Source of the DNA: a virus
Direction: 5' to 3' (one strand)
DNA length: 64,000 nucleotides
Virus record (IMG/VR): IMGVR_UViG_3300042340_000379
Coordinates: 62,001-126,000 of that record
This document shows, piece after piece, positions 3,571-43,200 of the stretch. Positions within the stretch are counted from its first letter, which is position 1. Every line of letters starts with the position of its first letter. The notes under the pieces were generated by a model. The model searched no databases. It saw only the letters and a list, made by a program, of their open reading frames with translations, and had not been told where the DNA came from. A program made the translations under genes and the position numbers.

Positions 3571-5133
3571 ATGACTCACATAAACTATGACGGGCACCTC
3601 TGCTCTTTAATTGACGCTCCCCCAGCCGTTGAAGACGAACTAAAGCAAACGCTTCAATACGTCAACACGTCAGAGATGGGGGAACACATACAGCGTTATG
3701 GTCTGACCCAAGACCAAGCGCGAGAAAAGGCAACCCATTTTATGTATAAGAATGGGTACTTTCTTAGCGGTTACTTACCAAGGGTCAAAAAGATTCTAAA
3801 GGCTCATGGCGTTAAACCTACAGTTACTTATTTGCACGACGCGCCAGAGTTTGTTGACTACGACTTTGATGAACTTCTCCATCGGCTAGAACTTGATAAA
3901 GTAGAGCACCAAGTTGATCTTCTGGAGACTCTTAAAACCAAAAATAGAGGGATAATCTGGATACCAACAGCAGGTGGCAAAGCGTTCTCAGCAGCGTTTG
4001 AGATTAACTACTTCCCTAACGCTAAGATTCTGGTTACAGTTCCAAAAGAGGATCTCCAAGTTCAGCTAATGGACACCCTGTCGTTAGTGTTAAACGAGCC
4101 TATTGGCAAGTTAGGTGGGAAAGGAAAAAACAAAATGGAGCGAGTGACCGTCGCCACACTACAAACAGCCTCTAAGAAACCAGAACTTCTAGAAGATATT
4201 CAAGTATGGGTGGCTGACGAATGCCACGAAATGCCTGAGATGCAGGAAAAGATTTCTGCTGCCATGCCTCAATGCGCGATTCGTTTTGGCTTCACAGCTA
4301 CTCCAAAACGTAAGGATGGAGCGCACTTTAAGATTGAGGGCATTCAAGGGCCAATTATCTACAAGACAACCCGGTCAGAACTAGAAGAGAATGGGTTTAT
4401 TCTAAAACCTTCCTTCTACAACGTTCGGTTTGTACACGAAGACACACGGCAGATTCCGTTTAGTAACGCGATTTCGATAGGAAGTAGTGGATATATCTAC
4501 CATGATAGGTTTGGACGACTCTCTAAACCTAACGAGGCAGAGCATCATGTTACTACTATCATGGAAAATCATGATAGAAACGACATGATCATAGAGCTAT
4601 TTACGTCGTTTCTAGAGTGGCCGGATAGAACCGGGCCTGGAGCCATATTCACAGGAAGAGTTGGACATGCAGAAGCGCTCGCCCGTCGCTTACGAGACTT
4701 GAAATATGATGCATTTGCAATTTCAGCCCCGAGAAACAAAGCAGAAAGAGAATTGCAAAAAGAGGTAATCAAAAAAGCACGCTGTTCAGATATTGACGCG
4801 GTCATTGCCGCTGATATTCTAAATACAGGAACTGACATTCGGACTTTACAATTTGCTCTTATGGCTGAGAGTTGTGCTAACCACACAATTATTACCCAGC
4901 GCATTGGGCGTATCTTACGTTCACCCCGAAACGGGGAAGTAAAATCTGGTGCGTATGTTGTGTTCATTGAAGACGATGAGTACTGGTGGCTAAACGCCAG
5001 AGCTGGGAAAGCCAAAGAGTTTATCAAAACAGAGTTTCCAGACTCACCTATGTATAATATGTCCGTTGACCAATTCAAAAAGCACTTCTTATGCTCTCAG
5101 AAACAATTGAGTTTAACGGGCCAATCCCGCTAG
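3571..5133 (+). CDS. SF2 DNA/RNA helicase (UvsW/RecQ-like architecture)
   Basis: ATP-dependent helicase expected to unwind or remodel branched DNA during replication and recombination. Motif I is PTAGGKAF (about residues 131-138), motif II is DECHE (about 215), motif III region is FTATP, and motif VI is QRIGRILR (about 443); together these define a complete two-lobe SF2 core. The motif I lysine is followed by Ala instead of the usual Thr/Ser (codons GGC AAA GCG), an odd replacement of the Mg-contacting residue. The 120-residue N-terminal extension is unassigned. The gene opens the nucleotide-metabolism and primase operon; its last 43 bases overlap the next small gene. Confidence 0.88.
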   Translation: MTHINYDGHLCSLIDAPPAVEDELKQTLQYVNTSEMGEHIQRYGLTQDQAREKATHFMYKNGYFLSGYLPRVKKILKAHGVKPTVTYLHDAPEFVDYDFDELLHRLELDKVEHQVDLLETLKTKNRGIIWIPTAGGKAFSAAFEINYFPNAKILVTVPKEDLQVQLMDTLSLVLNEPIGKLGGKGKNKMERVTVATLQTASKKPELLEDIQVWVADECHEMPEMQEKISAAMPQCAIRFGFTATPKRKDGAHFKIEGIQGPIIYKTTRSELEENGFILKPSFYNVRFVHEDTRQIPFSNAISIGSSGYIYHDRFGRLSKPNEAEHHVTTIMENHDRNDMIIELFTSFLEWPDRTGPGAIFTGRVGHAEALARRLRDLKYDAFAISAPRNKAERELQKEVIKKARCSDIDAVIAADILNTGTDIRTLQFALMAESCANHTIITQRIGRILRSPRNGEVKSGAYVVFIEDDEYWWLNARAGKAKEFIKTEFPDSPMYNMSVDQFKKHFLCSQKQLSLTGQSR

Positions 5134-5285
5134 ACAAAGATGCAATTGCAGCTGCCATACTAATTAAATTAGCCAGTAGCTGCGGGCGTGATCAAGAAGC
5201 TTGGCTAGAAGCTGCTCAGTTTCCAGGTAAGCCAAGATCTATACTAGTAAATGCGATTGATTACCTCCCTGAACTCGCCAAATGA
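5091..5285 (+). CDS. Small hypothetical protein between helicase and thyA
   Basis: 64 residues, soluble, helical, not recognised. It starts inside the helicase gene in another frame and its stop overlaps the thymidylate synthase start by four bases (ATGA), the usual spacing of this operon, which supports it as a real gene. No clear ribosome binding site precedes it, so it may be translationally coupled. Confidence 0.6.
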   Translation: MLSETIEFNGPIPLDKDAIAAAILIKLASSCGRDQEAWLEAAQFPGKPRSILVNAIDYLPELAK

Positions 5286-6226
5286 TGAAAACCCTTGCCC
5301 CTCTTTTTTCCAATACTGACACTGTGTTTGTTGACATCGTTAACACAATCCACGGTTACGGAACCTGGGAAAAGAATCATACTGGCGTGGATGCTCTGAC
5401 TGTATTTGGCTTAAGTTACCGACTCAAAATTCGGGAGCAAGCTTTCCCTATTCTTACACTCAAGGAAACTAAGTGGAAAGCTGCTCTCATTGAGTTGATT
5501 TGGTATCTCTCAGGAGACCAAAGCATTAAAGAGTTCAGAAACTACTCCAAGATTTGGGATCAATGGGCAGATCCTGATGGCCAACTAGAATCAGCTTATG
5601 GACGCTACTGGAAATCTTACCCCTTACCAGCCCAGTACGTAGGGCGGATTAAAGGAGAAACTAAACATCTTGTCAAAGGCGAGGCGTTTCCTGCAAGCGA
5701 TCATAATGCTGTCAAGTTTAAGGATGGGCTATTTGTCTTTGACCAAGTGACCCATCTAATCAACACACTCAAGCAGCAAGAACGATCGCGCCGAATGATT
5801 ATCTCGGCCTGGTATCCCCCTAATGCTGCTGTAAGTAAACTTCCGGCTTGCCACCACACCGTTACATTCTCTACCCAAATAATTGGTGGGGTAAAAAGGC
5901 TCAACCTACATCTTAATCAACGCTCGATGGATGTTGGGCTTGGGTTTTCCTTTAATCAAGTAGCCTACTCTATTCTGCTATTATTAGTTGCAAGGGAAAC
6001 AGGCTATGAACCTGGTGAGTTTTGGCACACTATTACTGATGCCCATATTTATAAAGACCATCTTGACCCTCTGTTAGAGTGCATCAAGCGGCCCGCGCAT
6101 AACATGCCGTCTATTAAAATCCCGGACGGACTCAGCGTCCTAAATTTAGGCTACGACGACGCGAAGAAGTTTGAATTAGAAGATTACACGTTTGAGCCCT
6201 TTATCAAACTAAAGTCTCATGAGTAA
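5282..6226 (+). CDS. thyA: Thymidylate synthase (ThyA type)
   Basis: Converts dUMP to dTMP with methylene-tetrahydrofolate, giving dihydrofolate. Classic ThyA features are present: the N-terminal folate/dUMP loop and PILTLKETKWK, YLSGDQSIKEF, the arginine pair in SRRMIISAW, the catalytic cysteine in LPACHHTVTF (about residue 190; the usual form is LPPCH), then QRSMDVGLGFSFNQVAYS for dUMP binding and DAHIYKDHLD near the end. 314 residues is slightly longer than typical ThyA, with extra residues between the YGRYW segment and the catalytic half. Followed by a dihydrofolate reductase gene that recycles its product. Well supported. Confidence 0.96.
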   Translation: MMKTLAPLFSNTDTVFVDIVNTIHGYGTWEKNHTGVDALTVFGLSYRLKIREQAFPILTLKETKWKAALIELIWYLSGDQSIKEFRNYSKIWDQWADPDGQLESAYGRYWKSYPLPAQYVGRIKGETKHLVKGEAFPASDHNAVKFKDGLFVFDQVTHLINTLKQQERSRRMIISAWYPPNAAVSKLPACHHTVTFSTQIIGGVKRLNLHLNQRSMDVGLGFSFNQVAYSILLLLVARETGYEPGEFWHTITDAHIYKDHLDPLLECIKRPAHNMPSIKIPDGLSVLNLGYDDAKKFELEDYTFEPFIKLKSHE

Positions 6227-6272
6227 TTAGCTGCGCTTTATACAAACCTTTATGTTTAATTAAATTCTGCAA

Positions 6273-6782
6273 ATGCAACTAATTATCATCGCGGCGATCG
6301 ATTCAAAAGACGGCCTTGGTAAAAACAACAAGCTTGCCTGGAGCTATCCCCAAGACCTACATAGATTCAAGATGACAACCTTAAATCACACTGTAGTCAT
6401 GGGCCGGAAAACTTGGGAGTCATTACCCAAAGCTCTGCCCGGTCGCCGCAATGTTGTAATTACACGGAACCCAGCCAAAGCGTTCGCTGATTACTACAAG
6501 GGGGATACTTCCCACGAAAAACTCCCCGCCGAGTTTTACAATAACCCCCTTCACCCAGACATCTTTGACTCTCCCTTCCAGCTATTAGAGAAAATCTTTT
6601 ACATAGGGGGAGCTGAAATATACAAGCAAGTCATTAATGAAGTAGACCAGCTCCTACTAACCAGAGTGCCGGGAGATCATAACTGCGATGCTTTCTTTCC
6701 AACCATTCCAGTTGGGTTCGCTTTATCTAGTTCAGAATTAAACCCCCCGCTAACCTATGAGCTTTACAAGAGAAGAGATTGA
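6273..6782 (+). CDS. folA: Dihydrofolate reductase
   Basis: NADPH-dependent reduction of dihydrofolate to tetrahydrofolate, regenerating the cofactor spent by the upstream ThyA. The N-terminal strand MQLIIIAAIDSKDGLGKNN, the substrate-binding acidic residue in the WSYPQDLHRFK helix, MGRKTWESLP and LPGRRNVVITR, then FYIGGAEIYKQ near the C-terminus are the standard DHFR order. 169 residues is a normal length. The preceding 46-base gap holds no clear promoter. The last 26 bases overlap the primase gene in another frame. Confidence 0.95.
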   Translation: MQLIIIAAIDSKDGLGKNNKLAWSYPQDLHRFKMTTLNHTVVMGRKTWESLPKALPGRRNVVITRNPAKAFADYYKGDTSHEKLPAEFYNNPLHPDIFDSPFQLLEKIFYIGGAEIYKQVINEVDQLLLTRVPGDHNCDAFFPTIPVGFALSSSELNPPLTYELYKRRD

Positions 6783-16523: not shown

Positions 16524-16538
16524 ATGCAAACAGATAAC

Positions 16539-18932
16539 ATGAGCCAAGCTATACAAGTTCCATATATTTCTCAAAAAGATATCCAGGAAGCATCTGTAGT
16601 CCATGAATTCCCAAAGTTTGGCCCTTTAGGCAGTGTTGTTGACTTGCGTACTTATCGACGTTGGTCAGATACAGACAACCGCCGCGAGAGTTTCTGGGAA
16701 CGGAATGCTCGCGTAGCTAACTATAATGCATCTCTTGCGTCAAAGCTCGATCGTCATGTAGAGCAAGATGCTAGAAAAGTATTTGATTTTATGAATCAAT
16801 TTCTAGCCTTTCCAAGTGGAAGAACAATGTGGGTTGGTGGAACAAAAGTCTCAGATGCCCACCCAGCTGCAAATTTCAATTGCAGTGCCCTCGCAATTAA
16901 CCGACTAGGTGCGTTTACAACCCTGTTTGAACTTCTTATGTTAGGAACAGGAGTCGGTTATAGAGTATTCTCTTCTGACATTAGCCAACTACCCAGCATA
17001 AAAGGGTACCCTAATTTGGTTCTTGAGGATTACGCTCCACTTAAAAAATCGAGCCGACAGCAAGAAACAACACAGCACCAAAACTCAGAAGAAGAAACAA
17101 TTTATGTGACTGTAGGGGACTCAAGGCGAGGCTGGATTCAGTCTGTTGAAATTCTACTCAATGTCTGGTTTGGAATTGATGAGAGTACAGAAAGGCCCAT
17201 TAAAAGAATCTCATTTAACCTAAATTCAATCAGACCCATGGGCGAGAGAATCCAAGGTTTTGGAGGAACTGCTTCCGGCCCAGAAGCTCTTGGAACTATT
17301 CTTACAAATATCCAAGATATTCTAAAAGAGTGCCCAACAAATAGACTCCGCAGTATTGACTGCATGGACATCTGTGACTGCATTGCTAAAGGCGTAGTTG
17401 CCGGTTCCTCACGGCGGTCAGCTCTGATCTGCCTATTTGAAGAAGGAGATGATTTGTGCGCCCACGCAAAACGGGGCCTATATAGCAATCCTGAAATGCA
17501 GAAGAAGCTGTATAGAAATCAATCTAATAACACAGAATGTGTTGGTAGTTCAAGGCTTCCAGCTTTTAGAGAGTTTCTAGAAAACAATCCTGACGCAGAC
17601 TGGTTCGATATAAAAAGTTTTATTGGGAAGCATCGCCCATCTATTGAATGGCTCAAAGATAGATTTGAAGTTGTAAAAGCAGAAGGAGAGCCTGGCTTTA
17701 ACAGCATTCTTATGATGGCAGCTAAGCGTTGGAAAGCAGTTAGAGAACACAGACCTGATTGCCCCGTAGAAGAAATCTGGGTTCGCTACTGTAATGTAGT
17801 CACAAACCCATGTCATGAGATTGTTTTATCAGCAGGGTACAGTGAAAAATTAGAGGACTGCGGAAAAGGAGTCTCCTTCTGTAACCTAACAACAATCCCT
17901 CTTCAAAATTACGTTGTAGATAAAAAGCTTCAAAAAGATCTTCTTAAAGAAGCAATCGAACTATGTGTTCGTATAGGGTTACGGCAAACCTGTGTCACCA
18001 TGCCAACTCAAGAACTCAACGAAACTCAAGCAGAAGAAAGGCTACTTGGAGTTAGCGCAACTGGCTGGAGAATGATGTTTGACCTCCTTGGCTGGACAAC
18101 AACATCAGGGGAAGTCAAAGATCTTCAAGCAGATATGAGAGCTTGGGCAAATAATGAAGCTACTCGGTATGCTTTAGAGTTGGGTGTTCCCAGGCCTCTG
18201 CTTGTCACATGTATTAAACCTGAAGGAACGTCTTCAAAAGTATTTGGCTCTACTGATGGTCTCCACTGGGATTGGGCAGAATACTATATTCGGCGCATTC
18301 AAATGTCTACAACTGATGCGTTAGCAAAAACTCTTAAAGCCCAGGGTTTCCCATGGAATCCTAAAGACTACGACATCAATTACCTAATTAAGCCTGAGAG
18401 TAAGCTAAACACTTGGCAAAAGATCGAAGTATTCAATGCGCTTTCTAACAAAGAAAAAGATGACATTTTTGAGCAATCAATGGCAGTTACATTTGATTTT
18501 CCGATTAAGTCACCAGCAAAGATAGCAAGTAGTTCTGTTTCTGCTATTGAGCAGCTAGAGAACATGCTCTCATTCTCAACTTGGTACACTGACCACATGC
18601 CATCCTCAACTATAACGGTGAAGGCTAATGAGTGGGATGGTGTAGCTAACTGGATTCACAACAATTGGACAGAGTACACGACCACGTCCATGTTCTCATA
18701 CTATAACGAGGCTCATCCTCTTCTACCGTATGAAGACATTACCAAGGAAGAGTACTACCAAATGCTGACTCAATTCAAGGAGAAATACAAACACCAATTC
18801 TCTGATGGACGAGTAACCTTTATGGTAGACGAAACACTGTTAGCCCAGAAAGAATACGAGGATGTTCTTAAAGGGCTAGACATTGATGAGTTATTAGATG
18901 CTGGGTGCTCTGTTGGATGTCCCATTCGATAA
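16539..18932 (+). CDS. nrdJ: Adenosylcobalamin-dependent (class II) ribonucleotide reductase
   Basis: Monomeric ribonucleoside-triphosphate reductase that makes dNTPs with a 5'-deoxyadenosyl radical from vitamin B12. Evidence: FPSGRTMWVGG, NFNCSALAI (substrate-site cysteine of the redox pair), GTGVGYRVF, the catalytic loop NPCHEIVL (about residue 424) and FCNLTTIPL, then TCIKPEGTSSKVFG, and a C-terminal redox pair in GCSVGCPIR. Length about 797 residues fits the Lactobacillus-type RTPR family. ATG at 16539 is preferred to 16524 because of a -10-like element directly upstream. It is followed by a hairpin terminator and then by a putative cobalamin adenosyltransferase gene that would provide its cofactor. 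Confidence 0.94.
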   Translation: MSQAIQVPYISQKDIQEASVVHEFPKFGPLGSVVDLRTYRRWSDTDNRRESFWERNARVANYNASLASKLDRHVEQDARKVFDFMNQFLAFPSGRTMWVGGTKVSDAHPAANFNCSALAINRLGAFTTLFELLMLGTGVGYRVFSSDISQLPSIKGYPNLVLEDYAPLKKSSRQQETTQHQNSEEETIYVTVGDSRRGWIQSVEILLNVWFGIDESTERPIKRISFNLNSIRPMGERIQGFGGTASGPEALGTILTNIQDILKECPTNRLRSIDCMDICDCIAKGVVAGSSRRSALICLFEEGDDLCAHAKRGLYSNPEMQKKLYRNQSNNTECVGSSRLPAFREFLENNPDADWFDIKSFIGKHRPSIEWLKDRFEVVKAEGEPGFNSILMMAAKRWKAVREHRPDCPVEEIWVRYCNVVTNPCHEIVLSAGYSEKLEDCGKGVSFCNLTTIPLQNYVVDKKLQKDLLKEAIELCVRIGLRQTCVTMPTQELNETQAEERLLGVSATGWRMMFDLLGWTTTSGEVKDLQADMRAWANNEATRYALELGVPRPLLVTCIKPEGTSSKVFGSTDGLHWDWAEYYIRRIQMSTTDALAKTLKAQGFPWNPKDYDINYLIKPESKLNTWQKIEVFNALSNKEKDDIFEQSMAVTFDFPIKSPAKIASSSVSAIEQLENMLSFSTWYTDHMPSSTITVKANEWDGVANWIHNNWTEYTTTSMFSYYNEAHPLLPYEDITKEEYYQMLTQFKEKYKHQFSDGRVTFMVDETLLAQKEYEDVLKGLDIDELLDAGCSVGCPIR

Positions 18933-18950
18933 AAGCTAGTTACACAAACT

Positions 18951-18994
18951 GGGAAGGAAGAACGTCTAAGCGAACTTTCCTTCCCATCCTTTTC
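18951..18994 (+). terminator. Hairpin terminator after nrdJ
   Basis: GGGAAGGAA (18951-18959) pairs with TTCCTTCCC (18977-18985), loop 17 bases, followed by ATCCTTTTCT. Moderate because the loop is long. Confidence 0.6.
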
Positions 18995-19031
18995 TACTGG
19001 GGAGCTACAAAATGGCACCCCAGTTTTCAAC

Positions 19032-19059
19032 TTCTCATAGTGGCCTACGACTATGAGAA
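19032..19059. repeat. Inverted repeat upstream of the PduO-like gene
   Basis: TTCTCATAGT (19032-19041) and ACTATGAGAA (19050-19059), 8-base loop. No T-tract on either strand, so it is more likely a leader RNA hairpin or protein site than a terminator; it lies 35 bases before the gene at 19095. Confidence 0.5.
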
Positions 19060-19094
19060 AAAATCCGTCCGAACATTTGCCCTAAGAGACTTTC

Positions 19095-19796
19095 ATGGAA
19101 TTAAGAGAATCAACCCCGCGTATCACATCAGGCTACTGCGAAGGATCTGGAAAGAAAAAGCCAGGTTACTCAGAAATTCTAAAGGGTGAGCAGCTTCCTA
19201 AATCCGACCCAGCTTGCAAGCTTCAGTCTCTCGGCTGGAAAGTCGCAATCCTTTCTGCCCGCTGTGTGGCTGAGATGCCAATACCAGATGCAGAAGCTAG
19301 TCACTTTCTAACTTGGATTAACAGCAACTTCTTCTCGCTAGGAGCATACGCTTTTAATAAAGGGAATACAGACCATAGAGTATTTCCCACTAACTGCGTA
19401 CAGCAACTGGAAGCCGAAGTTCAAAGAATGAAAACCTTCATTACTCGTGAGACAGGCCGAGCAGCAACAGACTTCATTAGACTCAAATCTTCTTATGGTC
19501 TTCTTGTAGAAGAAACCCAGCTAACCGTTAGGGAAACAGAGGCAGAGTTTGTAAGCTGGATGTACGACATCCGAATCGTGTCAGATTTTTACAGTCATCT
19601 AGATAAAGATAGTGAAAGCGCGTTTGTTCGCTACAAACGAATGCGAACCCTTGGTGACTTTCTAAACAGGCTGTCTACCTACCTGTTCTGGATGAATCAG
19701 TATCACGCTCTTCTATTTCAAATAGCTGAAGGACTTCCATTTGAGTACGCTGAGTGGAAATCGAATATTGAAGTCGGCCTTTTATTTCCTGAATAA
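19095..19796 (+). CDS. Divergent PduO-type cob(I)alamin adenosyltransferase-like protein
   Basis: 233 residues. Aligns by eye along the PduO family: N-terminal TPRITSGYCEGSGKKKPG and GEQLPKSDPACKLQSLG (family: TxTGDxGxT, then xKDDPRxxAxG); NSNFFSLGAYAFN (family: QxxLFxLGAxLA); VQQLEAEVQRMKTFITRETGRAATDFIRL (family: LExxIDxLxxxxxFILPGG, AaxLHxAR); and LGDFLNRLSTYLFWMNQY (family: YLNRLSDxLFxxARY). The RRAER helix is poorly conserved here (SSYGLLVEETQ), so ATP/cobalamin catalysis may be altered. The next gene after a B12-dependent reductase is exactly where a B12 adenosyltransferase would be useful. Assignment is inference from motif order and context. Confidence 0.5.
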   Translation: MELRESTPRITSGYCEGSGKKKPGYSEILKGEQLPKSDPACKLQSLGWKVAILSARCVAEMPIPDAEASHFLTWINSNFFSLGAYAFNKGNTDHRVFPTNCVQQLEAEVQRMKTFITRETGRAATDFIRLKSSYGLLVEETQLTVRETEAEFVSWMYDIRIVSDFYSHLDKDSESAFVRYKRMRTLGDFLNRLSTYLFWMNQYHALLFQIAEGLPFEYAEWKSNIEVGLLFPE

Positions 19797-20032: not shown

Positions 20033-20071
20033 AACCCCCAAACCTCCACACTAGAATTAGCGTGGGGGTTT
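20033..20071 (+). terminator. Hairpin before the GGDEF-EAL gene
   Basis: AACCCCCA (20033-20040) pairs with TGGGGGTT (20063-20070). It ends seven bases before the ATG at 20078, so it may terminate the upstream operon or act as an attenuator on the c-di-GMP gene; the T-tract is short. Confidence 0.55.
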
Positions 20072-20077: not shown

Positions 20078-21697
20078 ATGCCAGACACATCTTGGGACGC
20101 TATCTTCAACGCGACTCATACCATTCTTATTTCAGAATCAGGGAGAATCACCAAAAGCTCTCAAGGATTCGCTAATCTTCTAGGCTACACTCAATCAGCC
20201 TTAGAAGAAATGAACTATCGCAACATTGTCCATCTTGCTGATCGCGATCAAGATGAAGCTTTGTTTAAGGATCTTTTTAACGGAAACCAAACTCATTTTA
20301 ATTCCGAAGAGCGCTACATCCATAAAGAGGGATATACCATTTGGGTTCATATCATTAGCACTCTCTATGTTGAAGATGGGGCTAGGTTTATTGTAACTGT
20401 CCATGACATCACTACTCAAAAAGAGAAAGAGCTGTGTGTAGAACATTTATCTACACACGATGGTTTAACAAATCTCTACAACCGAGCCTTTTTCACAGAA
20501 TCCCTAAAGCAGACAATTGTAAAATGCTCGCGCTATTCTTGTGAAGACTATCTGTTCTACCTAGATATCAACACGTTTAAGCAAATTAATGACGACTATG
20601 GCCAAGAGGTCGGTGACCTCTGCTTAAAAATTATTGCCTCTAGGTTAACAAGTATATTTAGAAATACAGATGAAATCTTTAGAGTGAGCGGCGATGAGTT
20701 TGCCATCATTGTTCATAACGTCCAGAGTGAAGAAGCGCTTACGTACCTAATCTCAAGAATACAAAAAGAGCTTGATAAACCCATTCTCTCTGTAGCCAAC
20801 AACTTAACTGTTTCAATAACTCTGTCTCTCAGTCTGGGTGTGTGCAAACTAACTCATATATCCTCTCCATCAGATGCTCTCGCCATTGTTCAAAGATCTC
20901 TTCAGAAATCTAAAGCTGCGGAAGGGCAAACTATAGAGTGGGCATCATCTAAAGAAATCTATGAAGAGATAGAACTTGAACGGGAGATCCGTCAAGCAAT
21001 CCTCAAAGAAGACTTTGTTGTTTATTATCAGCCAATCAGAAATCTAAGTGACATGTCTCTCGCGGGGCATGAAGCGCTGCTCAGATGGCCTAAGAAAAAC
21101 ATATCCCCGATTACTATCTTAGAGATAGCCGAAAAGCTCAATCTAGTAGAACAACTTGAATGGAACTTATTTAAAAAGATTTTGAAGGTTGCTTCTTCTG
21201 AAGGGCTAGCCAAAAGATGGATTTCTGTTAATCTAAATTCACTGCTGCACGCTAAAAACTTTCGGGCAGAACTTACCCAACTTCTAAAAGACTACGATGT
21301 AAATCGAGACAGTATTGCGTTCGAGGTTATTGAAACTATCCGGCATAGCGACCCGGTTGTGCGCCTTTTAATAGACATTCAAAATGACGGCCACTCTCTT
21401 AAGCTAGATGACTTTGCACGCGATTATGCCTCGTTTGTATGGTTAAAGACACTCCCTCTAGATAGCGTAAAAATTGACCGTGAGTTTATCCACGGTATTG
21501 CTAAGGATAAACACAAAAAGCTGCAAGCTATCACCAGCGCTATGATTGATGTCTGCCACTCTCTTGGAATAAAGGTTGTCGCGGAAGGAATTCAAAGAGC
21601 TGATGATCTTGAGTGGCTAAAGCTAGCGGGCTGCGATCAAGGGCAGGGATTTCACCCATCTTTAGGAATACCTAGTAAAGATTTGCAGAAAAGATAG
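20078..21697 (+). CDS. PAS-GGDEF-EAL cyclic-di-GMP protein
   Basis: Bifunctional second-messenger enzyme, rare in phages. PAS-like sensor at about 1-115 (SESGRITKSSQGFANLLGY, HIISTLYVEDGARFIVTVHDIT). GGDEF domain at about 125-290: LDINTFKQINDDYGQEVGD for nucleotide binding, active loop SGDEF, and an RNTD placed five residues before it, matching the inhibitory RxxD site. EAL domain at about 300-535: EALLRW, VNLN, FEVIET, KLDDFA, VKID, VAEGI and GQGF, so the metal and catalytic residues of a phosphodiesterase are all in place (DDFA instead of the usual DDFG). No membrane segments, so cytosolic. It would set host c-di-GMP level during infection; direction of the net activity cannot be read from sequence. 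Confidence 0.93.
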   Translation: MPDTSWDAIFNATHTILISESGRITKSSQGFANLLGYTQSALEEMNYRNIVHLADRDQDEALFKDLFNGNQTHFNSEERYIHKEGYTIWVHIISTLYVEDGARFIVTVHDITTQKEKELCVEHLSTHDGLTNLYNRAFFTESLKQTIVKCSRYSCEDYLFYLDINTFKQINDDYGQEVGDLCLKIIASRLTSIFRNTDEIFRVSGDEFAIIVHNVQSEEALTYLISRIQKELDKPILSVANNLTVSITLSLSLGVCKLTHISSPSDALAIVQRSLQKSKAAEGQTIEWASSKEIYEEIELEREIRQAILKEDFVVYYQPIRNLSDMSLAGHEALLRWPKKNISPITILEIAEKLNLVEQLEWNLFKKILKVASSEGLAKRWISVNLNSLLHAKNFRAELTQLLKDYDVNRDSIAFEVIETIRHSDPVVRLLIDIQNDGHSLKLDDFARDYASFVWLKTLPLDSVKIDREFIHGIAKDKHKKLQAITSAMIDVCHSLGIKVVAEGIQRADDLEWLKLAGCDQGQGFHPSLGIPSKDLQKR

Positions 21698-21734: not shown

Positions 21735-22115
21735 ATGGTTGCTCTTAGAAATGCTCCTCCTTTCCGCCAGTCGTCTACACCACGTCCTGCCTACAAAACA
21801 TACTCCCCAACGGCTCGCCTCCAACCTCGGCAGATGGCCCCAAGGAAACAGCAAAACTTGCTGATTTATTCCCTTGTCTGGGGATTTGCTTTTTACCTAG
21901 TGACATCCACCGCATATAGCCTAGCTCTTGGCAAACTCGAGCCTATCTACTTTATGGGATTGATAGCCGTGGCGCTAATTATGGTAATCAACGCATTTGG
22001 GGAGCAGCTTGGCTTGTCGTTATGGTTTAGAATATTAGCTAGCTTCGCGATGGGCTGGCTGATTCCGACCTTTATGAGCGGGCTTTACTTTTTTCAAAAC
22101 CACATCGCGATGTAA
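21735..22115 (+). CDS. Small membrane protein, three transmembrane segments
   Basis: 126 residues. The first 40 residues are polar and basic (RPAYKTYSPTARLQPRQ), followed by three hydrophobic stretches at about 42-65, 71-90 and 95-120. This could be a holin or a membrane-modifying protein; there is no decisive motif. An imperfect hairpin (AAGCTGTTA ... TAATAGCTT) lies between this gene and the upstream one at 21698-21727. Confidence 0.65.
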   Translation: MVALRNAPPFRQSSTPRPAYKTYSPTARLQPRQMAPRKQQNLLIYSLVWGFAFYLVTSTAYSLALGKLEPIYFMGLIAVALIMVINAFGEQLGLSLWFRILASFAMGWLIPTFMSGLYFFQNHIAM

Positions 22116-22143: not shown

Positions 22144-23037
22144 ATGACCCGACCCTTAGATCAAATCGTGGCCGCTGTTCAGGCCGAGCAGTCGATCACC
22201 TGGCACGAATTCTGTCTCGCCGCTAACCGCACCGCCAGCAAAGAGAAATTCCCTTCTGGGTATCCCGCTGACCTTGCTGTCAGCGTTATGGGGCAGTTTA
22301 CCTATATTGGCCAAGAGCTAGATAAACTCAAAAAGGCATTGTTCTATGGAAAGAGTATGCCAGAACTTGTCGCAGCGCATCGCGTAACTATTGGAGAATC
22401 AGACCAGTACTCAGGCGAAGACTGGCCTGATAATATCTCACCTGACATTATTCACTGGATTTTGGGTGAGGCCACTGAGTCTGTTGAGCTAGTTGAAGCA
22501 CTAATCAAAGGGATGGTTGATGGTGAATCCCTTGATGCCATCAATCTTATGGAAGAAGAGGGTGACGGGCACTGGTACCGCGCTCTTCCTTACATTCACG
22601 CATTGGAAACAAAAGGCTTTGACCCAGAAGAACGCAAACAGCTAGTCTGGCGCAAAGTTCTCCTCAAGCTCATCACTCGCTACGGCGATAAGTTTAGCGC
22701 TACCGCTGCAATCGAACGGAATACTAACCTAGAGCGCGAAGTTCTAGAGGCGGGCATTGTTATGCCTAACGGAGAAATCAATTCCGCGATCGAGCAGCAA
22801 ATCATTCTCACCTCAGAACCTGATTTGGAAACTGCCCGCCAGGCACTCTCCGCTCTAGCTCGAGCAGAGCAGCAACTGCAAGACGCTCACACTGAGATCC
22901 TGACAGAAGCCGAGCAATACCTAAACATACTTTTGCTTCAGCATGTACTTCCCAGCACGATCGCTGAAATGGAAATGCCAGTTTTAATAAAGCAGCAAGT
23001 ACTAAAAATGGTACAAGCAGCCTCGACTACAAACTAA
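22144..23037 (+). CDS. MazG-like NTP pyrophosphohydrolase
   Basis: All-alpha nucleotide pyrophosphatase that hydrolyses (d)NTPs or ppGpp-like nucleotides; phage MazG proteins are thought to tune the nucleotide pool during infection. The signature ExxE...ExxD appears as GEATESVELVEAL followed about 25 residues later by NLMEEEGDGHWY, then LITRYGDKFSATAAIERN, the K/R-R-Y-x-x-F helix of the family. N- and C-terminal extensions of about 100 residues each are unassigned; 297 residues is long for a single-domain MazG. The gene has the palindromic operator candidate at its start. Confidence 0.78.
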   Translation: MTRPLDQIVAAVQAEQSITWHEFCLAANRTASKEKFPSGYPADLAVSVMGQFTYIGQELDKLKKALFYGKSMPELVAAHRVTIGESDQYSGEDWPDNISPDIIHWILGEATESVELVEALIKGMVDGESLDAINLMEEEGDGHWYRALPYIHALETKGFDPEERKQLVWRKVLLKLITRYGDKFSATAAIERNTNLEREVLEAGIVMPNGEINSAIEQQIILTSEPDLETARQALSALARAEQQLQDAHTEILTEAEQYLNILLLQHVLPSTIAEMEMPVLIKQQVLKMVQAASTTN

Positions 23038-23058: not shown

Positions 23059-23083
23059 GGCCTAGCTAGTAAACTAGGCCTTT
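23059..23083 (+). terminator. Hairpin in the nblA leader
   Basis: GGCCTAG (23059-23065), loop CTAGTAAA, CTAGGCC (23074-23080), then TTT. It stands between the mazG-like stop and the nblA ribosome binding site (GGAGA). Short T-tract, so it may be a weak terminator or an mRNA 5' stabilising hairpin. Confidence 0.55.
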
Positions 23084-23102
23084 GCCGTATCTGGAGATAA
23101 AA

Positions 23103-23309
23103 ATGTCAGATCAATCACAACCCGTACAACTCTCTTTGGAACAACAGTTTAGTCTGCGATCGTTTGAAGCTCAAGTTAACCGCATGAATCTTGAGCAGGC
23201 CCAGCAGTTTCTAGTCATGCTCTACGAGCAGATGATGTACAGAGAAAATACGTATAAGTCCTTAATCAAATCAGATCTACTAGGCATAAGCCGACCAATG
23301 TACCCATGA
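23103..23309 (+). CDS. nblA: NblA phycobilisome degradation protein
   Basis: 68 residues from the ATG at 23103, with GGAGATAAAA just upstream; a TTG seven codons earlier is rejected. The sequence has the NblA family core: LSLEQQFSLRSFEAQVNRMN, then QAQQFLVMLYEQMMYRE and YKSLIKSDLLG. NblA is a small helical adaptor that brings phycobiliproteins to the Clp protease so that phycobilisomes are dismantled. Phage-borne nblA is known from freshwater cyanophages; it would release amino acids and reduce light harvesting in the host. Its presence is the best host indicator in the window. Confidence 0.92.
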   Translation: MSDQSQPVQLSLEQQFSLRSFEAQVNRMNLEQAQQFLVMLYEQMMYRENTYKSLIKSDLLGISRPMYP

Positions 23310-24126: not shown

Positions 24127-24794
24127 TTAGCTTCAGCCGGTTTAATGGCGTAACCAACTTCTTTGGCGTCGAGCCCACCCTCAGTGGTGGGATTTCAATG
24201 ACTATCCACGCCGCTGAAGTTAACCATGACCTAAACCGTGATTGGTATTTTGGAAGATCGCGGCTTGTTGAAATTGAGATGAGCGCTCATCAATTTGCTG
24301 AACTCATCACAAATATGAATCGCGGGCCGGGTATTCCCTGCACAATCAAGCACATCGCGGGGCATGACATAGAAAAGTATGTCCCAATGCCTACCGTTAG
24401 AGAAAAGTTTGACGAAAATTTAACGGATAGTCTTTCTGAGCTTGAACGTAGGGCCGCAGCTCTTCATCAAGAAATTGCCGACCTCAAAAATGATAAAGGT
24501 AAAGCCGGTAAAAAAGATCTGGAAGTTCTTACTGGAAAAGCAGAGATGTTACTCAGGCAAATTAAGAGCAACCTGCCCTTCCTGACGCAATCGTTCTCAG
24601 AACAGCTGGACAACCAAGTGCTTAAAGCAAAGGTTGAGTTTACAGCCTATGTTGATAGTCAAGTCTACGCTCATGGGCTTGACGCCCTGGGAATTCAAGC
24701 AACCCTACCCGCCGCTGAAGAAAGTCCCGAGCAGGTTGACACTCCCCGACCTGAAGGTGCGGGGATTCTTGGTTCACTGACCGGACTTAACTAA
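24081..24794 (+). CDS. Hypothetical phage protein with an insertion-element-derived C-terminus
   Basis: 237 residues as it stands. The first 218 codons form a helical protein (SAHQFAELITNMNRGPGIPC, ERRAAALHQEIADLKNDKG). From 24736 on, the DNA is the right end of a TnpB element inserted on the opposite strand, so the last 19 residues (VDTPRPEGAGILGSLTGLN) are encoded by the element. Removing the element 24736-26045 joins codon 218 plus one base to ACCCAGTTTTTTGA and gives a short natural end, ...SPEQDPVF, stop. Function unknown. Confidence 0.75.
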   Translation: MSDKETRYEHSSYGLISFSRFNGVTNFFGVEPTLSGGISMTIHAAEVNHDLNRDWYFGRSRLVEIEMSAHQFAELITNMNRGPGIPCTIKHIAGHDIEKYVPMPTVREKFDENLTDSLSELERRAAALHQEIADLKNDKGKAGKKDLEVLTGKAEMLLRQIKSNLPFLTQSFSEQLDNQVLKAKVEFTAYVDSQVYAHGLDALGIQATLPAAEESPEQVDTPRPEGAGILGSLTGLN

Positions 24795-24860
24795 GCAGGA
24801 TTTCTCCAACTTAGTCAGAGGCTCAATCTCCCCAAGCGTTATAGTTTGGATCTGCCCGAC
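24716..24860 (-). ncRNA. Predicted omega/re-RNA of element 1
   Basis: TnpB proteins use an RNA from the element's right end followed by a guide from flanking DNA. Here the scaffold would overlap the tnpB 3' end, end at TCAA (24739-24736 on the minus strand), and the guide would be the next bases, 24735-24716 read on the minus strand. The 5' limit is approximate. Inference from family knowledge. Confidence 0.45.
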
Positions 24861-26045
24861 CCTACTTAATCCAAGTTTCAGGATGTTAATGGCTGCATTT
24901 ACGTCTCTATCTTCCATGTAGCCACAGTTAGGGCAAACGTGGGTTCTGACAGAGAGTGCTTTCTTAACTCTTGTTCCACAGTTAGAGCAATCTTGACTGG
25001 TATAGTGTGCGGGAACGGCGACAGCAATCTTTCCGTACTTACCAGCAAAATATTCTAACCATTTACGAAACGTTGACCATCCTGAATCACTAATCGACTT
25101 AGCTAGGTGGCGATTCTTAACCAACCCTTTCACATTCAAGTCTTCATAGGCGATCAAATCGTTAGATTGAACTAAACGCAGTGCCTTATTTTTAAGCCAC
25201 TCAACACGCTGCCTACTTACTCTTAAATGATTTAGGACGTACCGCTTTCTAGCTTTCTGATAGTTCTTGGATTGAGGTTTAGATCCTTTACGGAATTTCT
25301 TAGACTTTCTACGGTTGGCTCTATTCAACTGCTCCTCAGATTTGCGGTAAAACTTGGGGGATTCTACAAACTCGCCATTGCTAGTGGCGAAGAAGTATTT
25401 AATCCCTAAGTCAATCCCGACCGTGTTGTGGGTAGGCTCCGACTCTACTGTGCTGTCTGCCTGAATGCAGAATTGAACGTAGTAACCGTCAGCCCGCTTA
25501 ACCAAACGAACACGCTTGATCTGACTTTCATTATAGAAAGATAGATCATAGGTGCCAATTAAGCGTAACTCCCCAATATCAAAACCATCGGTAAACTTAA
25601 TCCGTTTTGGCTCAAGTAACTTCCATCCAGAGGTTTTGTATTCTACTGAACGTCCATTCTTTTTGAACTTAGGGAATCCTTTCTTACCCTTGGTTTTCTT
25701 TTTGCAGTTGTCATAGAACCGACTGATTGAACTCCAAGCCCTCTCAGCCGAAGCTTGCCGAGCCATAGAGTTGAGTTTTTTAGCAAACGGAAATTCCTCA
25801 GCTAACTCCTTGCAGAGTTTGTTGAGATCATATTTTCCTACTTTCTCATTATCCATCCAGTAACGAAGCGCTTTATTCCTCACGAATTGACTCGTGCGAA
25901 TGGCTTCGTCAATAGCTGACGATTGAGAAGGTTTTGTCCGTGCTTTGAACTCTAGTACAATCATATTCTTATGCTAACAGCTTCAGCATAAAATGACAAC
26001 AAAATAGCTAATTAACTAAGCCGTCCTAGAAGGACGGGGTTTTAG
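24736..26045 (-). mobile_element. TnpB-only IS200/IS605-type element 1
   Basis: Bounded by TCAA at the right end (TTGA on the plus strand, 24736-24739) and by TGGGT on the left flank (ACCCA at 26046-26050 on the plus strand). The right end has GAATCCCC...GGGGAGTGTCAA with a hairpin; the left end has the hairpin CCGTCC-TTCT-AGGACGG at about 26022-26038. No TnpA (Y1 transposase) gene is present, so movement needs TnpA in trans. It interrupts the gene at 24081. Elements 2 and 3 share the same end motifs. Confidence 0.85.
24774..25964 (-). CDS. tnpB: TnpB RNA-guided nuclease (intact)
   Basis: 396 residues. RuvC-type catalytic residues: Asp in VGIDLGIKYFF (about 187), Glu in IAYEDLNVKGL (about 272), Asp in EDRDVNAAINI (about 351). 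Four-cysteine zinc finger: CSNCGTRVKKAL then CPNCGYMEDRD. Basic N-terminal wedge region rich in Lys. TnpB cuts DNA matching its guide next to the transposon-associated motif and so helps the element keep its site after excision. All key residues are present, so it may be active. Its 3' end overlaps the plus-strand host gene by 21 bases. Confidence 0.93.
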   Translation of the reverse strand: MIVLEFKARTKPSQSSAIDEAIRTSQFVRNKALRYWMDNEKVGKYDLNKLCKELAEEFPFAKKLNSMARQASAERAWSSISRFYDNCKKKTKGKKGFPKFKKNGRSVEYKTSGWKLLEPKRIKFTDGFDIGELRLIGTYDLSFYNESQIKRVRLVKRADGYYVQFCIQADSTVESEPTHNTVGIDLGIKYFFATSNGEFVESPKFYRKSEEQLNRANRRKSKKFRKGSKPQSKNYQKARKRYVLNHLRVSRQRVEWLKNKALRLVQSNDLIAYEDLNVKGLVKNRHLAKSISDSGWSTFRKWLEYFAGKYGKIAVAVPAHYTSQDCSNCGTRVKKALSVRTHVCPNCGYMEDRDVNAAINILKLGLSRVGQIQTITLGEIEPLTKLEKSCLVKSGQ

Positions 26046-26732: not shown

Positions 26733-26860
26733 TTGATACTCCCCGCCCTAAAGAGACGTGGATTCTTGAGCAATCCAAATTTGGATTCTCAAAGGCGCAA
26801 TCAAAGCACCCCTACTGACTCCATCGAGGTTGACCCTCAACTTTGCCGCTACTTTTCTCA
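26713..26860 (-). ncRNA. Predicted omega/re-RNA of element 2
   Basis: Right-end hairpin and TCAA as in element 1; the guide would be 26732-26713 on the minus strand, matching the interrupted zinc-ribbon gene. Probably without a working partner because this tnpB is frameshifted. Approximate 5' limit. Confidence 0.4.
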
Positions 26861-28219
26861 GGATATTCGCCGCGCCATTGCAGTCAGCGTTGATCTTGAT
26901 GCCATCTTTAGATCGATACAGACCACGCTTAACCCGCTTACCAGACTCTTGCCACCCTTCGGGTTTTGCACCGAATGTAGGTAGTTCATCTTGGTCGATA
27001 AAGCTGGCTTTACTAGCGTAGCTTTCCTCAGTCTCGACAAAAACGATCCCGTACTGCTCACATAATTGAGCGATCCGATCCTTTAGTCGGCCTGTTGGGA
27101 TCTGGACAAACTTTTGATTTGTCTTGCTACCCAGGTTGATTCCTTGGCGCTGCCCCTGGTTCCAACCAAAAACAACAGAGCCGATCCTTTTCTCAATGCA
27201 ATGGTTGATCACAATCCGGGCTGTTTTATTTACAGCATCCCTAACTTGACGGTTTCTCTTCTCAGTAATCCCGGCTAGCTGCTTAGACCAAAAACCCTGT
27301 GGTTGATTTTCCTTAAGGATCGAAACCCTTTTGTTATACCACTGGTTCAAAGACTTTAAGTGCAGGCCATCCACAAAAAAGGACGTGCCCACATTGCTGA
27401 CACAAGTGATCCAGTTATTCAGACCTGGGTCAATCCCCAGCACGTTAGCGGGGTCTACGTCAGTCTTTACTGGCTCTACCTTATAGATCAATTCAAGGTA
27501 GAAAACACCATTCCTAGGCAAAATCCGATATTCCCGGATCGACTTAAAATCAAGGTTTGTGGGCATTGGCATATAGAAGGCGTCTAAGCCAAACCACGCT
27601 TTAACCTGACGACCCAGGGGGAACCGTAGACCTTCAGGCTTTAACTCAACGTCAGCCCCTGGGTAGGTGACTAAGTTTAACCCAGGCTTCCGGTAGTTTG
27701 GCAGCTTAGGCTTCTGAGAGACTGTCCCTTTTTCACGCCTTTTAGCAAACCGAAGAAGGACTTAAAAGACTCTGCTACTGTGGTCAAACATTGCTGGGAA
27801 ACGTGAGACTGCATCGCCTTAAAATGGGGGTTCCCTTTTAACTCACGGTGTAAATCAAACTTGGACGGAGCTTTACCTATCTTGAAGTAAAGTTGACGAG
27901 ACAAATAGGTACCACAGTTATGTAGCTTATTTGACTCCCCACAAAGAAACTCAAGGACTCCTTTTAGCTGGGGGTCTGGGTTGATTAAAACTTGCTGGCA
28001 TCCAAACATATTGTTTTATTCCCTCCTATCTCTTATAATAGCATAGTGTTATTACTTTAGGGGCACAATGCCAACAAAAAAACATCCTATCCCTGCTTAC
28101 CTAGATGATGCAGAATTTCAGATGCTAAGGAAGATCGCAGAAGACTGGGGCTGTAGCCTATCGGCAGCAATTAAGCGATTAATCCGGGAAGAAAGCCGTC
28201 CTGAAGGACGGGGCTTGTG
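26733..28219 (-). mobile_element. TnpB-only IS200/IS605-type element 2 (decayed)
   Basis: Right end TCAA at 26736-26733 (minus strand) preceded by GAATCC...GGGGAGTA; left end hairpin CCGTCC-TTC-AGGACGG at about 28197-28211 (plus-strand form GCCGTCCTGAAGGACGG), flank TGGGT (ACCCA at 28220-28224 on plus). Carries a frameshifted tnpB on minus and a small ribbon-helix-helix-like gene on plus. No tnpA. It splits the zinc-ribbon gene. Confidence 0.85.
26748..28009 (-). pseudogene. tnpB: Frameshifted tnpB of the rearranged-glutamate type
   Basis: The N-terminal part is read from 28009 to about 27720 (MFGCQQVLINPDPQLKGVL ... SFFGLLKGVKKG). Continuation is in another frame (VSQKPKLPNYRKPGLNLV, then LDFKSIREYR and LGIDPGLNNWITCVS) to 26748, so one indel near 27710-27730 breaks the gene. 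The usual RuvC-II Glu is replaced in VVFGWNQGQRQG; a Glu in VETEESYASKASF probably takes its place, as known for a subset of TnpBs. The second CxxC zinc finger is missing. The last Asp is in NADCNGAANI. Non-functional unless the shift is a sequencing error or programmed. Confidence 0.85.
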
Positions 28220-32852: not shown

Positions 32853-34119
32853 CTGAAACCCCGCCGTTTTAGGGCGGCTTGCATTTTACGTGCTAGAATG
32901 TGAGCATGACACAGAAAGCGTTTAAGTACCGATTCTATCCAACACCTGAGCAGGAATCTTTGCTCAGGCGAACGATGGGCGGCACCCGTCTTGTCTATAA
33001 CCGAGCACTGGCCGCAAGGACTGAAGCTTGGTATGAACGACAGGAACGGGTGGGGTACGTTGAAACGTCGGCTATGCTCACCGAATGGAAAAAAGATGAA
33101 AGTCTTTTGTTCCTGAATGAAGTGAGTTGTGTGCCTCTGCAACAAGGGTTGCGGCATCTGCAAACCGCCTTCACAAATTTCTTTGCGGGTCGGGCGAAAT
33201 ATCCCAACTTCAAGAAGAAGAGGAATGGTGGTAGTGCTGAGTTCACCAAGTCAGCGTTTAGGTTCAAGGACGGTCAGGTATTCCTGGCCAAGTGCTCTGA
33301 ACCATTGCCGATTCGCTGGAGTCGTGCCCTGCCTGAGGGTGCTGAACCCTCCACAATAACGATCAAGCTGACTCCCTCTGGGAAGTGGTTTGTCTCGTTG
33401 TTGGTGGATGTTGAGATTGAACCTTTGCCTACGGTTATGGCCAAGATCGGCCTTGACCTGGGCATCAATAGTTTGTTGGCGCTGAGCACTGGGGAGAAGG
33501 TCGCCAACCCGAAGATCTTTCGGGCTAAGCACAAAGCTCTCAAGAAAGCTCAGAAAGCGCTGGCACGTAAGCAGAAAGGGTCTAACAATCGCTACAAGGC
33601 ACGGCTCAAAGTAGCCCGTGCTCACGAAGCGATTGTCAACGCCCGCAAAGATTTCCTTCACAAGCTGACAACTCGATTGGTGCGCGAAAACCAAACCATC
33701 GCCGTCGAAGACTTGGCTGTGAAGAATATGGTGAAGAACCGTAGCCTCGCCCTCTCCATCAGTGATGCGAGTTGGGGTGAGTTGGTTCGGCAGCTTGAGT
33801 ACAAGTGCGATTGGTACGGCAGGGAATTGGTCAAGATTGACCGTTGGTTCCCATCCTCGAAGCGGTGCAGCCAATGCGGCCACACCGTCGAAAAACTGCC
33901 TCTCAACATTCGCTCTTGGGATTGCCCTAGTTGTGGTGCTCACCATGATCGGGATGTCAATGCTGCAAAAAATGTCTTGGCCGCTGGGCTAGCGGTGTCA
34001 GTCTGTGGAGCGACCGTAAGACCCGAACAGAGTAAGTCTGTGAAGGCTGGTGCTACGAAGCAGAAAAACTCCTGAGCGATCAGGGGAATCCCCTTCCTTT
34101 AGGTGGGGGAGCATGTCAA
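32853..34119 (+). mobile_element. TnpB-only IS200/IS605-type element 3
   Basis: Left flank TGGGT (32848-32852); left-end hairpin CCGCC-GTTTTA-GGGCGG at about 32861-32876; right end GAATCCCC...GGGGGAGCATGTCAA, ending at 34119. No tnpA. By eye it is richer in G and C than the flanking phage DNA, which suggests a more recent arrival than element 2. Confidence 0.85.
32906..34075 (+). CDS. tnpB: TnpB RNA-guided nuclease (intact)
   Basis: 389 residues from the ATG at 32906 (a GTG two codons earlier is possible). Starts MTQKAFKYRFYPTPEQESLL, the standard TnpB/OrfB opening with RFYPTxEQ. Catalytic Asp in IGLDLGINSLLAL (about 184), Glu in IAVEDLAVKNMV (about 268), Asp in HDRDVNAAKNV (about 348). Zinc finger CSQCGHTVEKL and CPSCGAHHD. 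All key residues are present. It follows the tRNA and interrupts a short frame. Confidence 0.94.
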   Translation: MTQKAFKYRFYPTPEQESLLRRTMGGTRLVYNRALAARTEAWYERQERVGYVETSAMLTEWKKDESLLFLNEVSCVPLQQGLRHLQTAFTNFFAGRAKYPNFKKKRNGGSAEFTKSAFRFKDGQVFLAKCSEPLPIRWSRALPEGAEPSTITIKLTPSGKWFVSLLVDVEIEPLPTVMAKIGLDLGINSLLALSTGEKVANPKIFRAKHKALKKAQKALARKQKGSNNRYKARLKVARAHEAIVNARKDFLHKLTTRLVRENQTIAVEDLAVKNMVKNRSLALSISDASWGELVRQLEYKCDWYGRELVKIDRWFPSSKRCSQCGHTVEKLPLNIRSWDCPSCGAHHDRDVNAAKNVLAAGLAVSVCGATVRPEQSKSVKAGATKQKNS

Positions 34120-40286: not shown

Positions 40287-43200
40287 TTAAACCAAAAGAG
40301 CAACAAAAGATGGATCTGCAGTATTACTAGCCGCTACTCGGTTGCTAGCATGGAAATGATCCGATGCAGACTGTTGTTGTTTAATTGAGATTCTGTTTGA
40401 TTGGGCGTCATAAGAAACTACATGTTCAGTATTTTGAGAAGCTGAAGGCCTTGGATTAGGATTTGAGGGTTGTCTACTTGAAACTTGTTGAACAGAAACA
40501 GTTCCGCGAACAGGCTGAACTTCAGGAGCTTTAACTTCTTGTGGAGTATAAGTTTGAACTGCAGCTCCAACTGTCATTGGTAATTCTTGTGCTCGTTGTC
40601 TCGCTTGAGTTTCACGCACTCTTACTCTTTGAGCCCCTCTTCTAAATAGATCCAATCCAAGAGTTAGGCCAGGAATAAACGTAGAAGCTAAAGCCCGCGC
40701 TGACTGATTAAACAAGTTAAACGCCCGCTTGAAAAACCCTGGCTTCTCTTTTGTGTAAGAAGAGGGGGATCGGTTAGCTACTTGGTCGATATAGCTTTCA
40801 GCATTTGTGTTATCACCAACCAGCCGCTGCTGGATAGATCCTCCCAAAAGTCGGTCAACAGCTTCTCGAGCATCCCTAAGAAGTCGGTCTGGGTGAGATT
40901 TGTAATAGCTAGCTGTTCCTAAAACTGAGCCTAATTTCCGACCTCCATAATTTGCCAGGTCAGAACCAAGAGTGTCAATAGTAACGCCAAGCGCAATCAT
41001 GCCAAGACCAAGGCCCGCACCTACACCAGTTGCCGTTACAGCCGCTCCCGTTGCGTAAAGACTTTTAGCTAAAATTGACATGGGAAGCGTAGCCGCTAAT
41101 CGAAACGCACCCCCAACTGCTTGAGAATAAGCCAGTTGATGCTGCTCTTTTGAAGAGCCATAATTAAGAGAAAAAGCTTTCTTTAAACCAGAGAACACAT
41201 CATAAGCCCCGATGCCATATTCAACAACATCAAAAATCCTCCCAGCAAACCAAGCCCCACTCTTAGCCACCTTAGTCGCACTAATAGCTTTTGTTGTATT
41301 CGCAGTCCAGCTAGCCGCGCCAATGCCTAACCGCCCTAAAGCTCGACCTCCTCGTCCAACCCCTCGGGCTACTCTACTTGATTGCTCAGCCTGTCGAGCT
41401 GCTTGAAGAGAAAGATGGAGTCCAGACTTAGCTGCTTGCTGCACAGCTTGATTTGAATTAACCGCTCCAGCTCGAAGCGCTTCGTACAGGCGAGCAGTTT
41501 TTGTATTCCGGCTAGCAACTGACTGAGTATAAGAACTCATCATATTAAACAGATCGTCGGTCTGATTTAACATCCCAGATTCTCGGGCGTAGCTCATTGA
41601 CCTAGACATTCTGGAAAACTCAGCATTCTGGGCATAATTTACTAAGGGCTCGAGATTACCAGATGCTCTACCTGCTTTAGCCAAAGAGAGAAGTTGGGGA
41701 GCATGTCGAATTAATCGAGAAGTCTTAAGGCTAAAGAGAGTGTTAGACACAGCCCCCACAACTAGATCTGTTTCAGTAGCTCTTCCCTTAGCCATAAATT
41801 CAGCTCGCCGCTCAGACCTAGCTGCTATTAGTGGGGCAAGTCCAATAGAAGCGAGCACACCTACAAGATCATTCTTAAACGCCGCTGTTATACCAAAGGC
41901 CGCTATTGTTTGAAGAGCTGAAGAGTATGTTGATTTAACATATCGTTCGCGAGTACCGCCAGAGAAATTATCGGCTCCCATTAATAACCGCATGTTATTA
42001 GCCATTCCTACGCCAAGAACGCCGTAACTACCAACTCTAAACGCTCCAGAAAGAACTCCCCCTCTGCGCATAGCGTAATCAAGCGCTTTGTGGCGAACTC
42101 CCCCAGTCACCGCGCCTCTAAATAGTTGAGCAAATATTTTGGTGTGCATAGCTTGAGCAGGTTTAGCTAAATACGCTAGCCCTATACCAACCGCAGCTCC
42201 TACATAAGCCCCTTTAGAATCATCATCATCAAGGCTATTTCCAATAAGATGACCCACCATAGCGCCAATGCCAGCCATTCCTATATAACGGTTAAAAACT
42301 CGGAAAGAACTTCTTACCTGATTTCGAGCACCGTATTGAGTTGCGGCAGAAATTCCCCCAGCAATAGCCGCACCTGCTACTCCAGTAACAGAAATCCCAT
42401 CATTTTCTCTACTAGAGAAACGATCACCTATTAGATAACCTAAAGCTCCAAAACCTCCAGTAAATCCAGCCTGAGATAGAGGGGCTAACAGTGAAGACAA
42501 TCGCTTAGCCTGAGACATGTAAGCAGCCCCAGCAAAAGCAGCGACGGTCGCGCCGACCATTACATTAATGTTTCCCTCAAACAATTTGTTGTAAGCGGCT
42601 ACTGAGAGGCCAGCCGCAATTGCTGCCATAGCTGCTGCCGTTCCCAGTTTGAAGCCTTTAGCCAGATTGATAGTAAGAGAACGCTGCTTAGCTAGCTTCT
42701 GAAAAATTCCTGAAGACTTAACCCGATTAAGTAAACCTGAAAACCGGCTTTGTCTAGCTATATGACCAGAAGCTATAAGCTCAATCGCAGTATGGCGAAT
42801 AGACCCGCTATAAACTAAAGCAGCGGTCGCAGCACCCCCGGCCCCCGCCAGTAAAAAACTCTTTTCGTCATCATTTTGTAAGTAGTAAAGTGCAGCCATA
42901 GACAAAGCGCCCGCGACTAGTGATCGCCCACCTCCTGACCTAAAAATTCCCCCTTCTAGGTAGCGTTCATACTCAAAAGCCGCGACTGAGTTTATAACGT
43001 TTTGTAGAGAACGGGTTGCTTGACGCACACCCTTAAACCCAAACTTATGCTTGACCGCGTAAGTGATAAGATTATCAACCGTTCCGCTTAGCTGGGGTAA
43101 AAGTAGATGAGCCTTTTTCTGAGCTAATGAGAGAATCTGGGTTTTGTATAAACCTGAGGCACCCCCAAGTGCTAAACCTAAAACAGTTCCGTACACTCCA

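Follow-up and report, generated by a model that had tools for sequence, protein, structure and literature searches.

Known cyanophage genes include some that affect light harvesting by the host, such as that of NblA, a protein that degrades phycobilisomes, and an effect of phage MazG on alarmone levels is suspected. Among the described GGDEF-EAL hybrids, A. xylinum DGC2 is a net cyclase that also has the catalytic EAL residues and a degenerate loop 6. MbaA of Vibrio cholerae appears to be active in both directions in vivo, synthesising as well as degrading c-di-GMP (PMC8079147). EAL domains without loop-6 conservation are grouped as class 2 and considered potentially activatable (PMC3229569); the glycines of this loop bond to a stabilising Glu and are tied to loop 6 positioning (PMC2994820), and phosphodiesterase (PDE) activity has been linked to an intact loop 6 (PMC10874727, PMC12943098). 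On the host side, c-di-GMP is essential in Anabaena, with one threshold for cell size, a lower lethal one and no growth effect of high levels (PMC13075795), and Microcystis has c-di-GMP enzymes together with PilZ receptors (PMC7063779). A diguanylate cyclase has been published in a Mu-like virus from the Cariaco Basin (PMC7785012), and we found no published cyanophage case of such a gene in the literature searched. Here we analysed a PAS-GGDEF-EAL gene at 20078..21697 (+) of a 64,000-nucleotide window, which corresponds to positions 62001-126000 in a virus record of 207,855 bases.

The contractile-tail sheath of this virus matched only Microcystis phages of the Ma-LMM01/MaMV group and Microcoleus phage My-WqHQDG in the databases, and the same phages were the best matches of its terminase. 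The record further holds thymidylate synthase, primase, helicase, RIIA-like and class II ribonucleotide reductase (RNR) genes, and more than 25 of its ORFs have a match in Ma-LMM01, in My-WqHQDG or in an IMG/VR relative of 172 kb; identities are mostly 21-42%, and gene order is partly shared. Scans with the RNR and terminase proteins disclosed no close phage relatives, and apart from Ma-LMM01-like contigs a search with the terminase alignment returned a single relative, of 172 kb. Judged from its proteins, the record is a true myophage and a new, distant relative of the Ma-LMM01 cyanophage group, outside the genus of Ma-LMM01 itself (Fukuivirus), with core shared proteins about 21-42% identical. 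The host is a phycobilisome-bearing cyanobacterium, because the phage has NblA, as Ma-LMM01 does, and it also carries a TnpB similar to cyanobacterial ones.

Several other features of the record are worth reporting in their own right. Three TnpB/OrfB genes lie at 24774-25964 (-), 26748-27572 (-) and 32900-34075 (+); the last shares 70-74% identity with Nostocales and Microcystis TnpBs and, being a codon-usage outlier, is probably a recent arrival. The large terminase gene (54691-57954) holds a 497-aa intein at 56140-57630 (-), directly inside the Walker A motif GRRAGK, which starts with C, ends with HN, is followed by T, contains LAGLIDADG-like motifs and does not occur in Ma-LMM01 or My-WqHQDG. 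Two ORFs are very large for a phage, one of 4401 aa at 40287-53492 (-) and another of 3360 aa at record positions 156772-166854. Separately, a tRNA covariance match at L003 7141-7270, spread over 130 nt (model 1-71) and not called by ARAGORN, could be a tRNA gene interrupted by a short insert.

The gene of interest sits in a same-strand series. A class II (B12-dependent) RNR (16524..18932, +) is followed by a PduO-type cobalamin adenosyltransferase-like ORF (19095..19796, +; Pfam E 1.4e-5, above cut-off; FLNRLSTYLF motif), a small ORF, the PAS-GGDEF-EAL gene itself, a small membrane protein with no assigned function (21735..22115, +), a MazG-like pyrophosphatase (22144..23037, +; phrog_229, E 5e-21) and NblA (23082..23309, +; PF04485, E 1e-22), so that nblA is three ORFs downstream of the PAS-GGDEF-EAL gene. 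These neighbours form a host-takeover cassette directed at nucleotides and light harvesting, into which a signalling enzyme fits naturally. The adjacency of the RNR and adenosyltransferase-like ORFs (16524-19796, +) points to possible adenosylcobalamin synthesis by the phage itself; in a related phage (G007) the corresponding genes are about 3 kb apart. Neither a PilZ c-di-GMP receptor in the phage nor, in the record up to its last 22 kb, a c-di-GMP riboswitch was found, and any effect of the enzyme must therefore act through the host.

The gene encodes a 539-aa protein without a transmembrane segment, in which Pfam recognised PAS_9 (aa 15-112, 20120..20413, +; E 5e-11), GGDEF (aa 126-282, 20453..20923, +; E 2e-33, 115.9 bits vs a cut-off of 23.8) and EAL (aa 302-526, 20981..21655, +; E 2e-48) domains. 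The AlphaFold2 model, built from 36 input sequences, reached a mean pLDDT of 86, and its best PDB matches were the GGDEF-EAL enzymes PA0575 (Z 30.9) and MorA (Z 29.9). This ORF with its motifs is thus real and not a chance frame, and the product of the phage-borne gene is predicted to be cytoplasmic. Inspection of the translation revealed no LOV flavin cysteine motif (NCRFLQ-type) in aa 1-120. Upstream, a predicted hairpin would cover the likely GGGGG ribosome-binding site (20040..20071, +), weakly set off from shuffled sequences (z -1.86), and a coding-strand scan found no sigma-70 promoter, which is uninformative for a phage.

The earlier note had read the gene as phage-encoded and named a host chromosomal origin of the contig, together with loss of activity in assays, as what would speak against its reading. 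We considered such an origin and rejected it: sheath, terminase, RNR, RIIA-like and primase genes are present in the record, phage-type genes flank the locus on both sides, and codon usage is phage-like. Indeed, the gene ranks third closest to the phage average in codon usage among 28 length-matched genes, and its GC3 is also phage-like. Codon usage thus suggests a long residence in the phage.

To describe the active sites, we aligned the protein with 124 homologues, of which 38 came from genomes, 4 from plasmids, 80 from viral loci and two from other sources. As the earlier note had stated, the SGDEF motif (aa 204-208, 20687..20701, +), an RxxD I-site and the full EAL metal and catalytic set are all there. 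The I-site reads RNTD (aa 195-198, 20660..20671, +), with R195 and D198 placed five residues before SGDEF. Within GGDEF, D163, K168, N171, D172, D180, D206, E207 and K279 are kept, D180 being the residue that we take to mark c-di-GMP rather than cGAMP synthesis. By analogy, the serine of SGDEF is compatible with cyclase activity (PMC8079147). The EAL domain has every catalytic residue (E332, R336, N385, E416, E419, D444, D445, K465, D467, E503 and Q523 among those kept); an E506Q change is probably harmless, because change of the equivalent E706 was without effect (PMC12943098). When all 12 EAL catalytic positions are set against columns of equal conservation, their joint retention has a P of about 0.03, which speaks modestly for selection acting on the chemistry. 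The claim that the gene is under selection is plausible, given that these residues persist along a very long branch.

The further claim that both active sites are intact holds for the catalytic residues and fails around them. EAL loop 6 (aa 444-453, 21407..21436, +) reads DDFARDYASF instead of the canonical DDFGTGYSSL, so that both glycines are missing. The glycine at position 447 is present in 90/90 homologues and that at position 449 in 87/90, and in none of the 90 are the two lost together. Class 1 EALs are defined by a loop 6 of the form DFG(T/A)GYSS, which is DFARDYAS here; with both glycines lost, the domain falls into class 2, that is, conditional. More broadly, the protein breaks seven of 33 strongly conserved EAL columns, against a mean of 1.1 in the others, and only one of 90 homologues breaks as many. 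Among the 30 GGDEF columns at 80% conservation it breaks eight (mean of the others, 1.7). In this domain the ADxALY helix motif is lost and reads VQRSLQ, G283 replaces the phosphate-contact Arg (PleD-R446 equivalent), and S204 and Q176 depart from consensus as well. The helix and the Arg, both absent here, are further signature positions of GGDEF domains, though not strictly defining ones. Outside the catalytic residues, therefore, this protein departs more than nearly all other homologues. Overall, the gene is a genuine phage gene in a favourable setting, and the description of its sites as intact needs a loop-6 caveat.

The earlier note had also called such enzymes very rare in phages, which proved overstated. 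Scanning IMG/VR with the GGDEF-EAL alignment yielded at least 470 confirmed relatives; many of these are situated at the ends of contigs, where they could belong to flanks of prophages or to host DNA. Among the matches listed, several are in contigs of 120-543 kb, and several GGDEF-EAL genes adjoin phage genes in contigs of 180-540 kb: RIIA and terminase near that of L148, and RNA ligase, a Dda-like helicase, a DnaB-like helicase and a homing endonuclease beside those of L138, L159, L177 and L182, respectively. The precedent in large phages rests on these contigs with phage genes next door, since a PF03237 terminase was found in only 1/15 long contigs with a GGDEF-EAL domain, and some may thus not be phages. 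In addition, phages G, SP-15 and CN1 have GGDEF proteins among the entries of BFVD, those of the first two likewise speaking against rarity, and several PHROGs families match the protein. GGDEF-EAL genes thus recur in large phages, a trait little described. Another 208-kb IMG/VR phage, L002, which has a phage tubulin gene, carries at 4968-6411 two overlapping ORFs, one hemerythrin-like and the other a stand-alone GGDEF with an I-site, a possible oxygen-sensing cyclase pair. We did not use as precedent a 25%-identical GGDEF-EAL in draft contig DQ115821 of cyanophage AS-1, because this 1.7-kb contig is unplaced, with no other matching phage record, and possibly host DNA. The enzyme kind is known, with phage precedent and no earlier case found in this cyanophage group.

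How the gene reached this phage is less readily traced. None of the 11 records of its own relatives that were checked, some of them fragments, has a GGDEF or EAL gene, and no homologue above about 33% identity was found in cells or viruses (cyanobacterial genomes were not searched directly). In the tree the protein has a branch of 3.75 against a median of 0.97 and stands beside another long branch without a supported position; a phage-specific clade with other jumbo-phage GGDEF-EALs was accordingly rejected. The absence from related phages and the lack of a close relative are what one would expect of a host gene recently picked up or of a chimeric contig. Nonetheless, the intact 539-codon frame, the phage-like codon usage and GC3, and the same-strand phage-type genes on both sides make a passenger or assembly artefact very improbable; the missing cellular homologue, within the search scope just given, also led us to reject a recent transfer from a cell.

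Sequence and model features suggest a PAS-gated c-di-GMP enzyme used in infection, probably a net producer or a conditional regulator. Its PAS domain would respond to a small ligand or to the infected cell's redox state and set GGDEF dimerisation; the SGDEF site would make c-di-GMP from GTP under RxxD product inhibition; and the EAL barrel, its chemistry kept but its loop 6 broken, would work weakly or only if activated. The net effect would be that c-di-GMP in the infected cell is held at a level chosen by the phage. Our tentative preference is that this enzyme of the takeover cassette fixes the cell's c-di-GMP, most likely by keeping it from falling; this direction is favoured because low c-di-GMP shrinks and then kills Anabaena whereas excess is harmless, and loop 6 adds a slight lean the same way. 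High c-di-GMP would benefit a phage whose 200-kb genome requires a large living cell, and lower levels would benefit one that disperses its hosts. The domains and their retained residues, D180 and the I-site included, the SGDEF precedent of MbaA, the high-confidence predicted fold resembling solved hybrids, the broken loop 6, the phage cassette with its cyanobacterial host and the phage-like codon usage speak for the preferred reading. The departures from GGDEF consensus (S204, Q176, the ADxALY helix and G283) count against it, as do the negative receptor and riboswitch searches described above and the absence of the gene from related phages. Rather unlikely as a whole is the fuller proposal that a lytic cyanophage uses a sensor enzyme of its own to set host c-di-GMP, within a nucleotide and light programme that also includes the MazG-like protein and NblA, and so holds the cell above its size and survival threshold. 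A c-di-GMP enzyme in the NblA/MazG-like cassette would add a third signal, and the effects on motility, phototaxis and defence that the earlier note envisaged are possible in a cyanobacterial host.

The conserved positions lost in both domains outside the catalytic residues, along with the retained I-site and EAL substrate residues, would also suit a non-catalytic c-di-GMP/GTP-binding regulator resembling FimX or LapD, which would bind at the I-site and EAL pocket and serve as a sponge or engage a partner in the host, for instance the type IV pilus system. However, FimX/LapD-type domains lose catalytic residues and all of them are kept here, so we regard this as improbable. The retained EAL chemistry could instead remove the cyclic dinucleotide alarm of a CBASS-type host defence, and phages do carry nucleotide-degrading counter-defence enzymes; yet such a role does not need PAS and GGDEF domains, the gene lies in a metabolic cassette and, to our knowledge, known anti-CBASS nucleases are not EAL proteins, which leaves counter-defence highly improbable. 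Doubtful, but a serious possibility, is a net phosphodiesterase in which GTP binding by GGDEF and a PAS signal switch on the EAL domain and lower c-di-GMP in the host; this would favour motility or dispersal, or would drive the cell below its size or survival threshold late in infection. All EAL catalytic residues stayed although about 70% of the protein diverged (the P of 0.03 above), E506Q is probably harmless (PMC12943098), CC3396 offers a precedent for a GTP-activated EAL, as mentioned in PMC8079147, and GGDEF-EAL hybrids such as PA0285 can be net phosphodiesterases (PMC10874727), which also counts against the preferred, level-keeping reading. What weighs against phosphodiesterase output is loop 6, whose double glycine loss is matched by 0/90 homologues and whose integrity goes with such activity (PMC10874727, PMC12943098).

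Compared with the solved Pseudomonas hybrids PA0861/RbdA and PA0575 (PDB 5xge, 5m3c), the protein has the domain order, fold (Z 27-31) and catalytic residues in common, but identity is about 30% or less and the loop-6 glycines, the ADxALY helix and the transmembrane part are missing here. It resembles MbaA (SGDEF-EVL) in being an SGDEF hybrid, whereas MbaA is membrane-bound with periplasmic input and ours is a soluble PAS protein. Ma-LMM01 (Fukuivirus), My-WqHQDG and IMG/VR 3300047552_001097 have sheath, terminase, other virion genes and primase related to those of our phage, and Ma-LMM01 also carries NblA as our phage does, yet all three are without a GGDEF or EAL gene and their core proteins are only ~21-42% identical. 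A phage-borne diguanylate cyclase domain, as here, occurs in Bacillus phage G (gp350), Bacillus phage SP-15, Bordetella phage CN1 and the Mu-like virus (PMC7785012), although these match the GGDEF part only and none is a cyanophage. The large IMG/VR phages (L138, L148, L159, L177, L182 and others) are without NblA, belong to another lineage and have GGDEF-EALs about 25-31% identical to ours with a canonical or near-canonical loop 6, but it is they that display the same hybrid architecture.
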